A stretch of 64,000 nucleotides of DNA from Thermoanaerobacterium aotearoense (lineage in GTDB: Bacteria; Bacillota; Thermoanaerobacteria; Thermoanaerobacterales; Thermoanaerobacteraceae): contig NZ_CP047602.1 of assembly GCF_009905255.1 (NCBI RefSeq), positions 2,343,501 through 2,407,500 on the forward strand, written 5' to 3'. The notes beneath the pieces are model-generated. The model was not told the DNA's origin. It saw only the letters and a program-made list of their open reading frames with translations, and searched no databases. Shown here one piece after another: positions 3,600 to 25,641 of the stretch (position 1 is its first letter; each line of letters begins with the position of its first letter). A program made the position numbers and the translations under genes.

Positions 3600-4229
3600 C
3601 TACCTTTTAATACCTTTGATCGTTATACTTGCAACAGGATAACCGTTTTTCATGTATTCACGCTTTTTAAGATATTCTATCTCTTTAAATCCAGCATTGT
3701 TTATGGCTTTTATATATTCTTCTTCCGGAATAGCTCCGCCAAAGCAATCAGCCCAAGCTTCAGGGTCATTTACAATCTCATCTGGAAGTCTGTCTTTTGA
3801 TACAACGTCTGAAACGACAAATCTCCCACCAGTCTTAAGAACCCTGTAAATCTCTTTATAGACTTTCTCTTTGTCTTTTGCATGATTTATTACGCAGTCG
3901 CTTATGACAACGTCAAATTTTTCACTTTGAAGTGGTATGTTTTCTACATCCCCTACGACAAATTCAGCATTTTTTACATTAAGCTTCTTTCTGTTTTTTT
4001 CTGCTTCTTCGATCATCCTCTCAGTAAGATCGAGACCTACTGCAATTGCTTTTTCACCTATTATCTTCGCAGCATTTAAAACGTCATTTCCTCTGCCGCA
4101 TCCTAAATCAAGGACATTTTCTCCTTCTTTTAAATCTGCCAAAACGATATTTTTACCGCCACAGCTTAAATTGTCCTCTTCTTCAGCTAATTTTTCATAT
4201 CTATTTATTATGTTTTCTTTCGCTTCCAT
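3600..4229 (-). CDS. ArsM-like SAM-dependent methyltransferase
   Basis: Counted from ATG 4229 (GGTGGTGACGAG upstream), the protein has 209 residues. A longer open frame to 4310 would put the promoter inside the gene, so I reject it. A class I methyltransferase fold is visible: SAM motif I is LDLGCGRGND and motif II/post I is VGLDLTERMI. Three cysteines resemble those of arsenite methyltransferases: an early SCGG, CVINHAKDK in the middle, and CFGGA near the C-terminus. These match the As(III)-binding cysteines of ArsM in context. It is shorter than typical ArsM (about 260-380) and lacks the usual C-terminal extension. It is the first gene of an operon with a Cys peptide and a radical SAM enzyme. 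The substrate could be arsenic or another thiophilic element, or a peptide thiol; arsenic is not proven. Confidence 0.85.
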   Translation of the reverse strand: MEAKENIINRYEKLAEEEDNLSCGGKNIVLADLKEGENVLDLGCGRGNDVLNAAKIIGEKAIAVGLDLTERMIEEAEKNRKKLNVKNAEFVVGDVENIPLQSEKFDVVISDCVINHAKDKEKVYKEIYRVLKTGGRFVVSDVVSKDRLPDEIVNDPEAWADCFGGAIPEEEYIKAINNAGFKEIEYLKKREYMKNGYPVASITIKGIKR

Positions 4230-4258
4230 CTCGTCACCACCTTTTACCAAAGACATAT

Positions 4259-4272
4259 CCCCTATATAGGGG
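4259..4272. promoter_or_regulatory. CsoR/CstR-like palindromic operator
   Basis: CCCCTATATAGGGG is a perfect 14-bp palindrome in the 5' UTR of the methyltransferase operon, about 10-20 nt downstream of the expected start. G-tracts around a TATA core flanked by AT-rich DNA resemble sites of the CsoR/RcnR/CstR family (copper, nickel, persulfide or formaldehyde sensors). No such regulator gene is in the window, so the assignment is inferred from the motif only. Confidence 0.5.
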
Positions 4273-4287
4273 GTGGTACTAAATGAT

Positions 4288-4316
4288 AGTATACCACAAT
4301 AATTTAACAAAGTAAA
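4288..4316 (-). promoter_or_regulatory. Sigma-A-type promoter of the methyltransferase/peptide operon
   Basis: On the minus strand, TTTACT (4316-4311) and TATACT (4293-4288) are separated by 17 nt. Transcription would start near 4281 and read through the palindrome at 4259-4272 into the ATG at 4229. Confidence 0.6.
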
Positions 4317-4391
4317 TACAAAACAAAAGAAAGAAAACGAATTTTATATTTAAATCTATTGTGTGGAATATTAGAATGTGGAGGTGTTTTT

Positions 4392-4712
4392 ATGAAAATA
4401 ACGGCCGTATTTCCTACTCAAGATATGGCAAGCGCGTTAGTCGACAGTTTAAAAAAGATGGGTTTCGATCGAAAAGACATGATCATAACAGACATGAAAA
4501 AATCTGTGCAGGATATGGATTTTATGGTTGACAACGCTATAGATATAAAGTCTGAAAGAGAAGGCTTAGGTGAAAAAAGACCTTATACAGACTTCTATAC
4601 AGATGACGTTGACTCCGGAATTCTCATTACAGTCGAAGCACCTAAGAAAGAACTGTCTAAAATAAGAGAGACAATGGAACAATGTGGTGCCACAAACATA
4701 ATCCAAAAGTAA
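4392..4712 (+). CDS. Small cytosolic protein, YflT/GspM-like
   Basis: The protein has 106 residues and starts at ATG 4392 after GGAGGTG. It begins MKITAVFPTQDMASALVDSL and has an alternating strand/helix pattern ending in ILITVEAPKKELSKIRETM. This resembles the ferredoxin-like fold of general-stress 17M/YflT-type proteins, which scan a sequence for a variable-residue pair. There is no signal peptide, membrane segment or catalytic motif. The gene is monocistronic: it diverges from the methyltransferase operon, and a hairpin follows at 4717. The family call is tentative and no biochemical function can be assigned. Confidence 0.75.
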   Translation: MKITAVFPTQDMASALVDSLKKMGFDRKDMIITDMKKSVQDMDFMVDNAIDIKSEREGLGEKRPYTDFYTDDVDSGILITVEAPKKELSKIRETMEQCGATNIIQK

Positions 4713-4716
4713 TCTA

Positions 4717-4742
4717 AGGTGGGGATATGTTTATTCCCACCT
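4717..4742 (+). terminator. Rho-independent terminator
   Basis: AGGTGGG and CCCACCT form a 7-bp stem directly after the stop at 4712, followed by the T-rich stretch AATTTCTTT. Confidence 0.65.
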
Positions 4743-4831
4743 AATTTCTTTGATGTTTTATTATCATTTACGTATTGCACGCAAATTCATCATATAGTAT
4801 ACTATGTACAAATATGGAGGGAGTGTTTTTT

Positions 4832-5143: not shown

Positions 5144-6508
5144 ATGGGCTTTGCTTTTGAAGAAATAGAAGAAACTATAAGGATGGTTCAATCGGAAAAG
5201 CTCGATATAAGGACCATAACCATGGGCATAAGTTTAAGAGATTGTTCAGGAGATAATGCAAACAAAATCGCTGAAAAGATCTACGATAAAATAACAAGAA
5301 AAGCCGAAAATCTCGTAAAGGTAGCCGAAGAATTGGAATCTGAATTTGGCATCCCCATTGTCAACAAGCGCATATCTGTGACGCCTATAGCCATCGTTGC
5401 AGACAATATTAAAAAAGATGAGTTTATTAAAATAGCTTCGTCACTTGATAAAGCTGCAAAAAATGTAGGCGTAAACTTTATAGGTGGATATTCCGCTTTA
5501 GTACATAAAGGATTTACAGATGGCGACCTAAACCTTATAAATTCAATTCCCCAGGTTCTTAGTGAGACAGAAAGAGTTTGTTCATCTGTAAATGTAGCGA
5601 CGACTAAAGCAGGCATAAACATGGATGCGGTAGCTTTGATGGGAAAAATCATAAAAGATACAGCGTATCGAACAAAAGAAAATGACGGCATAGGTGCTGC
5701 AAAGCTTGTAGTATTTTGCAACGCACCTGAAGACAACCCGTTCATGGCAGGCGCTTTTCACGGCGTCGGTGAAGGAGAATGCGTCATAAATGTAGGTGTA
5801 AGCGGACCTGGCGTGGTATTAGCAGCACTTTCAAAACTGCCAAAAAGTGCAGATTTCGGTCAAATATCTGAGACCATAAAAAAGACGTCATTTAAGATCA
5901 CCAGAGCTGGTGAACTCATAGGGCGTCTTGCAGCGCAAAGATTAAATACATCATTTGGAATACTTGACTTGTCTTTGGCTCCGACACCAGAAATAGGTGA
6001 CAGCATAGCAAACATACTTGAATCAATGGGACTTTCAAAATGCGGTTCACATGGCACTACGGCTGCACTGGCTCTTTTAAACGACGCCGTAAAAAAAGGC
6101 GGTGTCATGGCATCATCGTACGTTGGCGGATTAAGTGGTGCATTCATACCTGTAAGTGAAGATGCCGGAATGATAGAAGCTGTTGAAGCAGGCGCTTTAT
6201 CAATAGAAAAACTTGAAGCCATGACGTGTGTATGCTCGGTTGGGCTTGACATGATTGCAATTCCAGGTGACACGCCCTATGAGACCATATCAGCCATAAT
6301 AGCCGACGAGATGGCAATAGGCATGATAAACAAGAAGACGACCGCTGTAAGGATTATCCCAGCTCCCGGCAAAAAAGAAGGTGACTATGTGGAATTCGGC
6401 GGTCTTTTAGGCCATGCACCTGTTATGAAAGTAAACAGTTTTTCTCCAAAAGATTTTATAGAAAGAGGCGGCAGAATCCCTGCACCGCTTCACAGCCTAA
6501 ACAATTAG
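5144..6508 (+). CDS. PFL family protein, UPF0210 (DUF711)
   Basis: The protein has 454 residues and begins [18 protein letters not shown] 5144 lies 9 nt after AAGGA, while the ATG at 5135 is too close to it. The hallmark [11 protein letters not shown] is near residue 25, followed by glycine-rich stretches ([26 protein letters not shown]). The family has a structural relation to glycyl-radical (pyruvate formate-lyase-like) barrels, but no glycyl-radical motif is visible, and its function is unknown. It is paired with the ACT gene upstream. A terminator follows at 6513. Confidence 0.9.
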
Positions 6509-21884: not shown

Positions 21885-22008
21885 TTATTCATCACCTCCT
21901 ATTGTATTTACCTCTCCTTATAATATGTTTTTCTCAAAAAAATTTATATAGAAAACATAAAAAAATCGGATGTATATTTTGTGTATACACCCGATTTTTA
22001 AATATCTC

Positions 22009-23661
22009 CTACGCTACGATTATGAGTTTTTGATAATTTTGAATTATATTATATATTCTTTCTTCTTCTTTAATAATCCTGTTGCTATCATAGTCATAAG
22101 CATAGCACGCACCATTTATGACCTTTGTAGTCAGCATGCCACTTGCGCTTTTATTTCCTTTTAAATGCGGTGCATCTAAAATGCCAAGCTTTATAGCCTG
22201 TGATAGTGTATGTGGATCTGACAGCGGATCGCTGCACAGTGTATTAAGATCCTTTATGGCATTGATTATTACCATCGCATCATTTACAAGTTCCTCTTTC
22301 CTCTTTACAACATCAAGATCTTTAGTAAAATCCACCATGCCACGCAAAGTGTTATTCACCACAGCTTTTGTGATTTTCACACTTTCTATTATGTCATCTG
22401 GCGTTGCAGCATGATGTGCTTCGCAAAAACCTACAACATGGTATATGTGTGGCTTTATCGCCATGGAAAGATATGCGCTGGATGCAAGCTGCCCTTTTGC
22501 CTCATAAAGATCCTGCGGCATACTTGCAAGCCCTGCCCTTGCCTGTCTAAATACTTTAAAGTTATCATCCTGCAAACTCTCTACCAGTTCTATGGACGCC
22601 AGCATTTTAGCAAGATCCATTTTGGGAGATGCGGTAGGAGGAACATTAAACATAAACTGCGCTATATACGTCTTTACACCCATTTTCTTCGCATTGTACG
22701 CTGCAATGTAGCTTGCCGCCACATAAATAGCATCATGTGCATCTCTAAGTCCCCAATGGTGTGCTTCATTTACTTCAACAGGTATATTTCTGTCAGCATG
22801 CCATTTCATCAACATCTGATTCTCTCTAATTGACTCCTCCACTTGTCTTGGCCCTCTGCCATCTAATACATTGTACCAACAAAGGGGTATAGCAGCCCAG
22901 GCATTATTTATCGTGTCTTTTAACATTTTTGCCATTTTAAAGACATCATTTGTTCCACTGTAACATCTAAGCAAAGGATAATTTCCACGCCTTGACTCAT
23001 CGTAAAGTCTTTTAAATTCTTCTTCAGTTCTTATAGGTACGCCACCTGCCCCATCAAGTGATTCTTTATAATTCTTATCAAAAAAGTGCTCTTGTGTGTT
23101 TTGATCAGGCGCTATCGATATTACATCGAGAACTTTTTCTTCCGCGATTCTCCTTACACCTTCAAGCGTATCATCATACGAAGGCAGTCCAAAGTGATGT
23201 CTTATTATAGGATACGGATAGCTTTTTTCAATCCTTTCAACCACATCTTTACCGTATTCTTCTTTGCTATATACGGTTTTCTTTCCTCTTAGATATGAAA
23301 CTGTGTGCTCATCACCAAAAGTTCCATCAAAAATTTCCTCAAATATCCCTGATTCTTTAGCAATTAGACAATTTGGCTCCGTCCCTCCAAATATCCATCT
23401 AACATTGTCCAAACTATATTTTCGTATTTTATCTCTAAGCTCATTTAATATGGATTTTAGTGCCTCTGGAGTCAATCTATAGCTTACACCTACTATGTCA
23501 GGTTTCTTTAAAAGCACTATTTCTATCAATCTATCAATAGATGTAGCAGGACCTAAAAATTCCACTCTATACCCTTCCTGCTCCGCCATATTTAAAAATC
23601 TATATACTCCCGCAACATGAACATCATTTTCTATGGAAGCTGCAATAATATACTTTTTCAT
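22009..23661 (-). CDS. B12-dependent mutase-like enzyme with N-terminal B12 domain
   Basis: The protein has 550 residues. The N-terminal ~130 residues match a cobalamin-binding Rossmann domain: DVHVAG (DxHxxG), then VSYRL (SxL) and FGGT, the three B12 contacts. The remainder is an alpha/beta barrel with GAGGVPIRT, RCYSGTND and FNVPPTASPKMDLAKML. This resembles the glutamate mutase epsilon barrel, although glutamate mutase is usually split into MutS and MutE. It would catalyse a radical carbon-skeleton or aminomutase rearrangement of an amino-acid-like substrate. It overlaps the opine-dehydrogenase-like gene by 4 nt (ATGA), so the two act together under the c-di-AMP riboswitch. The exact substrate is unknown. 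Confidence 0.75.
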   Translation of the reverse strand: MKKYIIAASIENDVHVAGVYRFLNMAEQEGYRVEFLGPATSIDRLIEIVLLKKPDIVGVSYRLTPEALKSILNELRDKIRKYSLDNVRWIFGGTEPNCLIAKESGIFEEIFDGTFGDEHTVSYLRGKKTVYSKEEYGKDVVERIEKSYPYPIIRHHFGLPSYDDTLEGVRRIAEEKVLDVISIAPDQNTQEHFFDKNYKESLDGAGGVPIRTEEEFKRLYDESRRGNYPLLRCYSGTNDVFKMAKMLKDTINNAWAAIPLCWYNVLDGRGPRQVEESIRENQMLMKWHADRNIPVEVNEAHHWGLRDAHDAIYVAASYIAAYNAKKMGVKTYIAQFMFNVPPTASPKMDLAKMLASIELVESLQDDNFKVFRQARAGLASMPQDLYEAKGQLASSAYLSMAIKPHIYHVVGFCEAHHAATPDDIIESVKITKAVVNNTLRGMVDFTKDLDVVKRKEELVNDAMVIINAIKDLNTLCSDPLSDPHTLSQAIKLGILDAPHLKGNKSASGMLTTKVINGACYAYDYDSNRIIKEEERIYNIIQNYQKLIIVA

Positions 23662-24758
23662 GCGACAGTGATCTCCTCCTTTAACCCCTCTATCATTTCC
23701 TTTATTTCTTCTACACTTTTTCCTTCCAATCCCAATTTCCCCACTGTGCGTCCGATTTTCCAGTAGTTTACCTCATGCATGCATGACGCCAGATGAATTA
23801 TAGAATCTATAGTATAAGTAGGAATGCCTAATTGTTTGCCAATTGATGAAATAGGCACCAAGCTCATTGGCACATCTTCAAAAATGTACCTACAATCAAG
23901 ATTCTTTGGCGCTAACAAGCCTCTATAAGCATCTGTATTCTGTATCGCATCGTACAGATTATCTGCAATAACGCCGTATGCATCTTTAAGCCAATCAAGT
24001 GCTGTAACAGCATTGACGCCTAAAGCGTGAGCAACTGCTATTCTCTCTCTGTCCATTCTTTCCAATATTTTGGCAACCGATGGCGATATTCCTTCCAAAT
24101 AATATTGAAAATCACCTTCTGTAGTCTCTATTCTTGCAGAGTTCAAAAGTGTAGGCGCTGGATGAAAGATAGAACCTATGTTATTCAAACTGGTCTCTAA
24201 TACATTTTCAGCAGGCACTATTTGCGAATAAGCCAACCTCAATAAATCAACAACATAATCAGCTTTCCAAGACGGTATAGCTGCCAGTGAAACTACATCT
24301 TTTATTTTAAATATTTTCGACACACCATTATTCGATCTGCAAGCATATATAAACGTATCAGTCTCTGCAATTACCACATTTATATCATCTCTAATTTTGA
24401 CAATGTTATAGAATTCTATCGCGCCAAAAGTCCTGCCCGGATTCAAAACTATTATCTGATCATTTCTTAAGTGCGGTAGCATTTCATAAGCTATATCCCT
24501 GTGTCCAGAGGCAGGGACAGTCACCATGATTATGTCTGCATCTTTTATAGCGTCTTCCATACTATCAGTGACCATATTAATCTTTGCAAATCCATCTACC
24601 ACACCCTCAAGATAGATACCGCCATTATTTAAGATAGGAACTAATTTTTCACGAGACCTGTTGTACAAATTAACTGTAAAACCCTTTAGCGAAAGATGTG
24701 CCGCCATTGCCTGCCCACCGTTGCCGGCACCAATGACAGAAAAAATAGGTAATCTCAT
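23658..24758 (-). CDS. Octopine/nopaline dehydrogenase family enzyme
   Basis: The protein has 366 residues. An N-terminal NAD(P) Rossmann fold begins VIGAGNGGQAMAAHLSLKG (GxGxxG). The octopine-dehydrogenase C-terminal domain includes NNIGSIFHPAPTLLNSARIE and a His (HPA) at the expected catalytic position. Such enzymes reductively condense an amino acid with a 2-oxo acid, or oxidise opines. The gene is first in its operon: an RBS precedes ATG 24758, and the c-di-AMP riboswitch with its terminator lies upstream. The next gene overlaps by 4 nt. The pairing suggests an unusual amino-acid-derived solute pathway; no substrate can be assigned. Confidence 0.85.
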   Translation of the reverse strand: MRLPIFSVIGAGNGGQAMAAHLSLKGFTVNLYNRSREKLVPILNNGGIYLEGVVDGFAKINMVTDSMEDAIKDADIIMVTVPASGHRDIAYEMLPHLRNDQIIVLNPGRTFGAIEFYNIVKIRDDINVVIAETDTFIYACRSNNGVSKIFKIKDVVSLAAIPSWKADYVVDLLRLAYSQIVPAENVLETSLNNIGSIFHPAPTLLNSARIETTEGDFQYYLEGISPSVAKILERMDRERIAVAHALGVNAVTALDWLKDAYGVIADNLYDAIQNTDAYRGLLAPKNLDCRYIFEDVPMSLVPISSIGKQLGIPTYTIDSIIHLASCMHEVNYWKIGRTVGKLGLEGKSVEEIKEMIEGLKEEITVA

Positions 24759-24789: not shown

Positions 24790-24817
24790 AAAAAAGCCAT
24801 AGAGAAAATCTATAGCT
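24790..24817 (-). terminator. Riboswitch expression-platform terminator
   Basis: AGCTATAGA and TCTATGGCT (one G-U pair) form a 9-bp stem with the loop TTTTC, followed by TTTTTT on the minus strand. It lies between the ydaO aptamer/leader ORF and the opine-dehydrogenase-like gene. Confidence 0.85.
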
Positions 24818-24829
24818 TGAACCCGGCAA

Positions 24830-24862
24830 CTAATAGAAGGTAGTTGTACCGAATATATTCAT
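24830..24862 (-). CDS. Leader ORF inside the riboswitch 3' region (10 aa)
   Basis: ATG 24862 has a near-ideal Shine-Dalgarno (GAGGAGG, 7-nt spacer) right after the aptamer. It encodes MNIFGTTTFY followed by TAG at 24832-24830. The stop is 13 nt before the terminator stem at 24817-24795, so ribosome occupancy could affect terminator folding. It has no repeated regulatory codons that would mark an amino-acid attenuator. A short functional peptide or a passive leader are both possible. Confidence 0.55.
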   Translation of the reverse strand: MNIFGTTTFY

Positions 24863-24880
24863 GCTATTTCCTCCTCTTTC

Positions 24881-24985
24881 AACGCTTACGAGGTTAGCTG
24901 ACGGGTTAGGGTCGAAAGATAACCCCTCCATATAAATGGATTCACCCCAAAATTGGTTTCCCCGCTTCATACGAATTCAGCGTTA
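24881..24985 (-). ncRNA. ydaO/yuaA-type c-di-AMP riboswitch aptamer
   Basis: The minus-strand RNA starts AACGCTGAATTCGT, ends CGTAAGCGTT and pairs as P1 (AACGCT/AGCGTT). Between them are the conserved parts AGCGGGGAAACC, GGGGTGAATCC and ACCCGTCAGCTAACCTCG, which match the RF00379 consensus as I know it from Bacillus ydaO. A terminator follows, so c-di-AMP should switch transcription off. Typical targets are K+ transporters and cell-wall hydrolases; here it precedes an opine-dehydrogenase-like gene and a B12 mutase-like gene. Confidence 0.93.
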
Positions 24986-25008
24986 TAGCATATTATTGAA
25001 TTAATTAA

Positions 25009-25037
25009 ATTATACCATAGCAAAATCTCATTTGCAA
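25009..25037 (-). promoter_or_regulatory. Promoter of the riboswitch operon
   Basis: On the minus strand, TTGCAA (25037-25032) and TATAAT (25014-25009) are separated by 17 nt, giving a start near 25002, just before the aptamer. Confidence 0.7.
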
Positions 25038-25376: not shown

Positions 25377-25404
25377 TTTACTTTTATTCTTATCGTGTTA
25401 TAAT
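25377..25404 (+). promoter_or_regulatory. Promoter of the antisense (antitoxin) RNA
   Basis: TTTACT (25377-25382) and TATAAT (25399-25404) are separated by 16 nt, giving a start near 25411. Confidence 0.65.
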
Positions 25405-25410
25405 ATAAGT

Positions 25411-25498
25411 AAGAGTAATCGGCACCGCAAAGTGCGGTCGCCCAGCGTAAGTTATAAATTTATAACCACTCTGGTTGCAGCAGGGTGGTTATTTTTTT
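25411..25498 (+). ncRNA. Candidate antisense RNA antitoxin
   Basis: The short plus-strand transcript would begin near AGAGTAATCGG, contain a small hairpin (ACCGCA/TGCGGT) and end at a strong terminator (25462-25492, ATAACCAC.../...GTGGTTAT, followed by T7). It is complementary to the 3' end of the toxin mRNA and overlaps the last codons of the toxin gene, the layout of TxpA/RatA and BsrG/SR4 type I modules. Confidence 0.7.
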
Positions 25499-25575
25499 CT
25501 GTTAAAACTAAGAAGTGCTATGACGAACATTCCAAACATTATCATTAAAGATAACGTTTCATATGTATTCATCAT
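25489..25575 (-). CDS. Small hydrophobic toxin, holin-like type I toxin (28 aa)
   Basis: ATG 25575 has a strong Shine-Dalgarno (GGGAGG, 9-nt spacer), and the frame ends at TAA 25491-25489. The 28-residue product starts MMNTYETLSL, has one membrane segment (MIMFGMFVIALLSF) and ends NRKK. This is the pattern of putative holin-like toxins in Firmicute type I toxin-antitoxin modules: N-terminal MNTYE-like head, single helix and basic tail. The 5' UTR contains CCAC...GGGAGGTGG complementarity that may hide the Shine-Dalgarno. An antisense RNA gene lies opposite its 3' end. It would insert in the membrane when not silenced. Confidence 0.78.
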   Translation of the reverse strand: MMNTYETLSLMIMFGMFVIALLSFNRKK

Positions 25576-25641
25576 ATGCAACCACCTCCCTTCGCGGGAA
25601 AGTGGCAACCACACCCTGCCATATCCGATTACTCTATCCAT

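Follow-up and report, generated by a model that had tools for sequence, protein, structure and literature searches.

The window, i.e., the whole stretch of 64,000 nucleotides of Thermoanaerobacterium aotearoense DNA analyzed here, carries on its minus strand a c-di-AMP riboswitch that almost certainly controls a two-gene operon for an opine dehydrogenase (ODH) and a B12-dependent mutase. Our reading, to which we give a probability of roughly 0.6, is that this leader acts as an OFF switch on the biosynthesis of a product that would serve turgor or K+ homeostasis. An earlier note on this DNA had put the opine/B12 genes under the control of a c-di-AMP riboswitch, and both the anatomy of the locus and its recurrence in other genomes strongly support this claim. 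In general, c-di-AMP keeps K+ and turgor balanced, and unknown osmotic genes have repeatedly come to light through its riboswitches.

The riboswitch leader and its operon

The features of the locus are the following, all on the minus strand:

25009..25037 (-): promoter-like site TTGCAA-17-TATAAT with extended -10, 10/12 consensus matches only
24985..24992 (-): inferred 5' strand of the outer P1 helix, UAUGCUAU, from the minimum-free-energy fold
24869..24992 (-): c-di-AMP (ydaO) riboswitch aptamer, RF00379, full length (cmscan)
24860..24867 (-): AUAGCAUG, which in computed folds pairs with the outer P1 5' strand or, partly, with the terminator 5' arm (candidate antiterminator)
24794..24818 (-): intrinsic terminator of the expression platform, 10 pairs, then a T-rich tail
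23658..24758 (-): opine dehydrogenase (366 aa), CENDH-like, from a PF02317 match and alignment to CENDH
22009..23661 (-): B12-dependent mutase (550 aa), B12-binding domain 1-128 and glutamate-mutase-E-type barrel 135-538, from profile match and structure model
21961..21999 (-): intrinsic terminator closing the two-gene operon, 16 pairs

When the whole window was scanned with the covariance models of 4227 families, the aptamer reached 103.2 bits (E 2e-23), the gathering score being 38; it is the sole RF00379 match within the window (24992-24869, minus) and faces the opine/B12 genes. The earlier note had described an aptamer that fits the ydaO consensus along its length and is followed by a terminator, and both statements hold: model positions 1-134 of 134 are covered, and the terminator (24818-24794, minus) lies about 50 nt past the aptamer end, ahead of the ODH ATG. 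With its full-length aptamer, its downstream terminator and its place as leader of a transcription unit, the element resembles the RF00379 (ydaO/yuaA) class, from which it differs in governing a gene pair without assigned function. As far as the sequence tells, it is an ordinary RF00379 member with nothing different in the RNA itself. The aptamer presumably binds c-di-AMP, and a c-di-AMP synthase domain is encoded in the same genome (161.5 bits).

The promoter-like site would put the start of transcription just upstream of the aptamer; we regard this part as weak, because this AT-rich region contains many such matches (55, with 35.2 expected). On the far side of the site, the plus strand near 25400-25600 holds a small unit with a strong terminator at 25462-25492 as its end, and the minus strand holds a short reading frame (near 25500-25580) that looks by eye like a type I toxin resembling holins; the two may form a type I toxin-antitoxin pair next to the riboswitch promoter.

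The two genes of the operon share 4 nt, at the ODH stop and the mutase start. Past the mutase gene, the 16-pair terminator (21999-21961) cuts the operon off from the amidase and holin genes that follow (21884-20889); these were rejected as members for this reason and probably form a separate unit. They encode a CwlD-like N-acetylmuramoyl-L-alanine amidase and then an LLH-family phage holin (20889-21884, minus).

Besides the terminator between aptamer and ATG, the expression platform comprises alternative folds, which were computed. The full leader, folded alone, forms the outer P1 helix, in which UAUGCUAU pairs with AUAGCAU, together with the terminator. In a leader segment that lacks the 5' half, AUAGC pairs with GCUAU of the terminator arm instead, and removal of the 5' P1 strand lowers the computed probability of the inner terminator pairs from about 0.92 to about 0.12. 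Counting against the switch model, the best fold keeps the terminator when the 5' P1 strand is merely barred from pairing within the full leader. In the proposed mechanism, bound c-di-AMP would close P1 and sequester AUAGCAU, so that the terminator can form and shuts the operon off; in the absence of ligand, this strand would be free to pair with the 5' arm of the terminator (GCUAU), and both genes would be transcribed. Since a ligand-stabilized P1 frees the terminator, an OFF switch is predicted. It is very likely that the leader is a transcription-attenuating c-di-AMP riboswitch, and nearly as likely that it works in the OFF direction.

A terminator-like hairpin follows 43 of 48 operon riboswitches (that of the window and those of 47 named loci, see below), a count that includes a probably false call at locus L221, placed within the coding region of the ODH. 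At L205 and L221, the aptamer has no convincing terminator right behind it, its end leading into a stretch rich in purines and an ATG; this suggests translational control there. The antiterminator was dropped as a statistically proven element, as short pairings failed to beat shuffles in most leaders: the pairing in the window is equalled by 70/200 shuffles of its own leader, and just 3/43 leaders have one matched by at most 20/200 shuffles. An ATAGC-type strand is present in 14/19 leaders with a GCTAT-type arm and in 0/14 with an ACTAT-type arm. This motif comparison is one-sided, with the expected ATAGT-type partner in just 5/14 ACTAT-type leaders, and the two groups of leaders are also largely two clades. 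The antiterminator element is thus suggestive.

Distribution of the riboswitch-operon pair

Within the class to which the window belongs, the mutase gene occurs in 21 of 37 genomes, every one of which has an RF00379 match upstream of it in the same orientation (21/21, coordinates compared by eye); the search for the same pair in other Thermoanaerobacterales, proposed in the earlier note, thus has a positive outcome. In two genomes of the class, G035 and G036, the operon is preceded by tandem RF00379 elements. The tandem of G035 (G035:C12:44882-45250) and one at L205 (4509-4898), likewise before the ODH-mutase operon, belong to two genomes of one family.

At the level of the phylum, 149 of 398 genomes contain some match to the mutase, many of which cover the B12 domain only. 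Outside the class, 74 long matches were taken, weaker or partial matches below them being left out, and one long match cut by a contig end (G346) was excluded before the phylum count. The riboswitch lies upstream at 30 of these 74 loci (23/60 and 7/14). For class and phylum together, this gives 51 of 95 loci with a riboswitch, spanning 16 families by our own count of family codes; the ODH gene was found at 92 of the 95.

A further, named set, obtained by an independent scan, consists of 80 loci, the best 80 of at least 582 relatives, and shares some genomes with the other sets. RF00379 scores above the cut-off in 57 of the 80 named genomes, at the operon in 47 and elsewhere in 10. Of the 47 loci, 35 passed a strict motif check and 12 were assigned by place, strand and terminator. 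The latter were counted because the Rfam model scored above its cut-off and each of the 12 is followed by a terminator-like hairpin; they lie on the right strand at a distance of 1.2 to 1.4 kb, with contigs matched by position and strand rather than by name. Where a named genome has exactly one RF00379 element above the cut-off, this copy lies at the operon in 17 of 23 cases, many of these genomes being metagenome-assembled (MAGs) and maybe incomplete.

On a tree of 81 mutases (48 with riboswitch, 29 without, 4 not counted), presence of the riboswitch needs at least 6 changes, 4 of them forced by starred branches, compared with 23.5 in shuffles. The riboswitch is therefore strongly clustered by descent, yet has been gained or lost several times. 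Operons without it make up 44 of the 74 phylum loci outside the class and 33 of the 80 named loci; among them are archaea, Bacteroidota and Halanaerobiales MAGs, in which the genome either has no RF00379 or carries the copy elsewhere. Consequently, control by c-di-AMP is not intrinsic to the pathway, and the pathway is older or broader than this control.

Two further observations were made at related loci. At L157, an OLE RNA (RF01071, 474.5 bits; 4172-4824, plus) lies close to the ODH-mutase operon and its riboswitch. At L003 (1769-3118), genes that by eye are Ku-like and LigD-like DNA repair genes adjoin a riboswitch-controlled NlpC/P60-like gene.

The pair of ODH and B12 protein was pointed out in 2009 in Halothermothrix orenii and relatives, its role being unknown then (PMC2626281); the passages on the pair in that paper do not mention a riboswitch alongside it. 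A full-text literature search returned no paper that pairs an opine dehydrogenase with glutamate mutase, and none was recognized on a c-di-AMP riboswitch with this gene pair, the likeliest gene lists (Block 2010, Nelson 2013) lying outside its reach. To see whether the crystallized ydaO aptamer quoted in PMC5393176, whose printed construct may be altered, stems from this operon, a 27-base stretch of it was compared with 265 loci, of which it matched none. The novelty rests in the pathway, not in the riboswitch, and we do not claim that the pairing itself is unpublished.

The two enzymes and their companions

Both gene identities given in the earlier note, opine and B12, were recovered by profile search. 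The ODH matches PF02317 (Octopine_DH) with 174.9 bits against a cut-off of 30 (E 1.4e-51) and NAD_binding_2 with 42.6 against 21. It aligns across nearly the whole chain with N-(1-D-carboxyethyl)-L-norvaline dehydrogenase (CENDH, PDB 1bg6; E 2.1e-83). H199, R290 and D295 stand opposite CENDH H202, R292 and D297, which, with positions counted on the alignment, we take to be its active-site residues, so that the His/Arg/Asp catalytic triad is kept. The enzyme is predicted to join an amino acid reductively to a 2-oxo acid; it differs from CENDH in its translational coupling to a B12 mutase.

The mutase matches the B12-binding family PF02310 (40.6 bits, E 2.6e-10). PF06368 stays below its curated cut-off (18.5 against 26.6 bits), which sets the protein apart from glutamate mutase, while some relatives pass with up to 32.1 bits. 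A structure model built from 52 sequences (mean pLDDT 91.1) has a GlmE-type barrel and a B12-binding domain, with Z 31.4 to 1cb7_B and 16.4 to 4jgi_B. The modelled barrel (135-538) superimposes on chain B of glutamate mutase (1cb7) over 372 residues with an rmsd of 3.0; the next best among the matches listed are lysine 5,6- and ornithine 4,5-aminomutases (Z 25-29). The cobalamin motif DxHxxG is present as D13-x-H15-x-x-G18, of which H15 and G18 are invariant in 52/52 sequences, position 13 being mostly Cys across the family. Going by the modelled fold, the protein is therefore a one-chain cobalamin mutase of glutamate-mutase type. It shares with GlmE/GlmS (1cb7/6h9e) the barrel, the DxHxxG B12 domain and, in some lineages, an adjoining GlmL gene, but has both domains on one chain, at 15-16% identity. 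Separate S and E chains with a GlmL activator are thus not what the window encodes, and GlmL was not found in its genome.

Methionine synthase, to which the 2009 paper saw "distant similarities" in the B12 protein (PMC2626281), was rejected as the identity of the 550-aa protein: the match is confined to the B12-binding domain, and the barrel leads to glutamate mutase and the aminomutases.

By motif reading, the mutase family has PDQN, with D186 invariant in 52/52 sequences, where GlmE has YTRQN; two arginines, R154 and R232, do not vary within the first and third strands. The substrate clamp of glutamate mutase presumably consists of R66, R100 and R149. D186 stands opposite R100 by motif only, as the profile alignment covered just 233-525, and one arginine of the clamp appears to be Asp here. 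Because PDQN with D186 replaces YTRQN, the substrate may not be glutamate. A residue-level mapping of the pocket was given up, hhalign reaching E 0.00012 (55.7% probability) over 233-525 only, and forced global alignments of smaller pieces gained nothing.

Neighboring genes were compared in 137 distinct loci pooled from both sets, whose flank lengths differ. An ODH gene lies near the mutase gene in 122 of them. A gene for a D-Ala-D-Ala-ligase-like ATP-grasp enzyme was counted at 33 loci, at 22 of these on the same strand; the corresponding numbers are 17 for the asparagine-synthetase-like enzyme, 9 for GlmL and 8 for a hotdog thioesterase. Representatives fall into PF07478 (ATP-grasp), PF00733 (asparagine-synthetase-like) and PF13941 (GlmL). 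The one GlmL tested, from L128, exceeds the cut-off of the equivalog NF040745 (606.6 against 475 bits); the gene order at that locus is riboswitch, opine dehydrogenase, ATP-grasp, thioesterase, GlmL, mutase.

At L086 and L218, a separate RF00379 element directly precedes the asparagine-synthetase-like gene and adjoins the riboswitch of the operon (6248-6413 and 3871-4036, both minus, at L086; 2123-2279 and 4595-4763, plus, at L218); an O6-methylguanine-DNA methyltransferase gene lies between the asparagine-synthetase-like gene and the riboswitch-led ODH-mutase operon. In Thermoanaerobacter and Caldanaerobacter, the asparagine-synthetase-like gene stands next to the operon; three genomes from the genus of the window have it at another place, and the genome of the window itself lacks it at E 1e-60. 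This patchy placement within the class marks it as an optional step. In a Desantisbacteria MAG (L237), whose operon is riboswitch-free, CBS-domain and Na_H_Exchanger genes lie between the mutase gene and the asparagine-synthetase-like gene, and in a Thermococci MAG (L217) a D-glutamate-cyclase-like gene takes this place. Asparagine synthetases need an N-terminal Cys to use glutamine. The enzymes of L166, L215, L217, L230 and L237 lack this residue and are perhaps ammonia-dependent or lactam-forming.

Product of the pathway and its regulation

The two enzymes quite likely act within one biosynthetic pathway. We propose that the operon makes a small molecule by means of the ODH and an adenosylcobalamin radical mutase of glutamate-mutase fold, which would rearrange either a substrate or the product; reaction order and substrates are conjectural. 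In other lineages, the ATP-grasp ligase or the asparagine-synthetase-like enzyme would then form an amide. The product would act as a compatible solute or as an organic counter-ion, and it would be synthesized at low c-di-AMP, i.e., at high osmolarity or when K+ is short. That it serves osmotic or K+ balance is, in our estimate, somewhat better than an even bet. The earlier note had put forward an osmolyte or turgor role; this is plausible and now better supported, though still something we infer. Reuse of a turgor signal, the genomes whose single riboswitch lies at the operon, the companion amide enzyme with a second riboswitch and the Na+/H+-exchanger gene in one distant operon all fit a pathway for a solute or counter-ion.

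Known systems offer partial parallels. In Dehalobacter sp. CF, a tandem Na+/c-di-AMP riboswitch stands over ablA, the gene for lysine 2,3-aminomutase, and a c-di-AMP OFF riboswitch over this gene of β-lysine (osmolyte) synthesis has been demonstrated in vitro (PMC9337991). The likeness lies in a c-di-AMP OFF riboswitch over a radical enzyme that rearranges an amino acid, osmolyte synthesis being a property of ablA; the enzyme of the window differs in being B12-dependent and fused, in its glutamate-mutase fold and in its pairing with an ODH. There is no Na+ riboswitch in the window, in which only RF00379 and tRNAs reached the gathering score. Among osmolyte pathways, that of N-acetylglutaminylglutamine amide (NAGGN) combines an amide-forming ATP-grasp and an asparagine-synthetase-like enzyme acting together. 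Both enzyme types occur among the companions, and TIGR03104 is among the matches of the companion enzyme; however, it stays far below its cut-off (123.2 against 570.1), and the two types occur together in 0/137 loci.

The regulon of the organism bears on a different product. RF00379 occurs four times in the genome, the copy at the opine/B12 operon scoring best, and the other three all precede cell-wall-hydrolase-like genes, with domains, read by eye from the translations, that are LysM and spore-cortex-hydrolase-like, peptidoglycan-binding and NlpC/P60-like, and SH3 and NlpC/P60-like. The statement of the earlier note that known targets concern K+ and the cell wall agrees with these three copies but is too narrow, as the target groups reported, in general terms, include amino acid transporters and osmotic-shock genes (PMC7266159), to which ablA can be added (PMC9337991). 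The operon might thus sit in the cell-wall branch of the c-di-AMP regulon, under riboswitch control as described, and make a component or modifier of the cell wall or envelope, and the D-Ala-D-Ala-ligase-like companion could be taken in the same sense. This companion, however, falls far short of the curated cut-offs for D-Ala-D-Ala ligases (e.g., 154.7 bits where 245.65 are required), the pathway is present in archaeal MAGs, i.e., in organisms without murein, and we know of no murein role for either core enzyme; we hold an envelope product to be improbable.

Slightly less improbable, but still unlikely, is an operon of fermentation or nitrogen metabolism, for redox balance through opines or for methylaspartate-like glutamate turnover, which c-di-AMP would tie to the metabolic state or to glutamate/2-oxoglutarate pools. 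The named carriers are, judged by their names, anaerobes or come from anoxic settings, and anoxic animals regenerate NAD+ by forming opines. Since K+ has glutamate as its main counter-ion, glutamate turnover could itself explain c-di-AMP control. An ODH is up-regulated in ethanol-adapted Thermoanaerobacter, which the authors of that study read as arginine or acid-stress protection and not as osmoregulation (PMC3751872). Catabolism, on the other hand, needs no ATP-costing amide-forming enzyme such as the ATP-grasp or asparagine-synthetase-like companions, and no β-methylaspartase was recognized among the recurrent neighbor clusters, which were mostly judged by eye. Opine dehydrogenases also make opine metallophores in other bacteria, and export of the product as a metallophore or signal of staphylopine type was considered; given that no recurrent exporter or uptake system was recognized within the operon among these clusters, and that c-di-AMP is not, to our knowledge, a metal signal, this is very improbable.

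We therefore return to the OFF switch over a pathway for turgor or K+ homeostasis. In its most specific form, which is tentative and carries clearly less than an even chance, anaerobic bacteria and some archaea would make a new opine-type compatible solute or K+ counter-ion with a fused B12 radical mutase, its synthesis being a main target of c-di-AMP riboswitches, in some genomes the only one. The ODH may first make an N-(1-carboxyalkyl) amino acid, which the mutase would rearrange, with amidation in part of the lineages.

Across many Firmicutes families, a two-enzyme pathway without known product is a recurrent target of c-di-AMP riboswitches. The osmolyte reading is directly testable in Thermoanaerobacterium. 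Should the pathway indeed yield an osmolyte, this compound would be new, and so would the use to which B12 radical chemistry and opine dehydrogenases are put.
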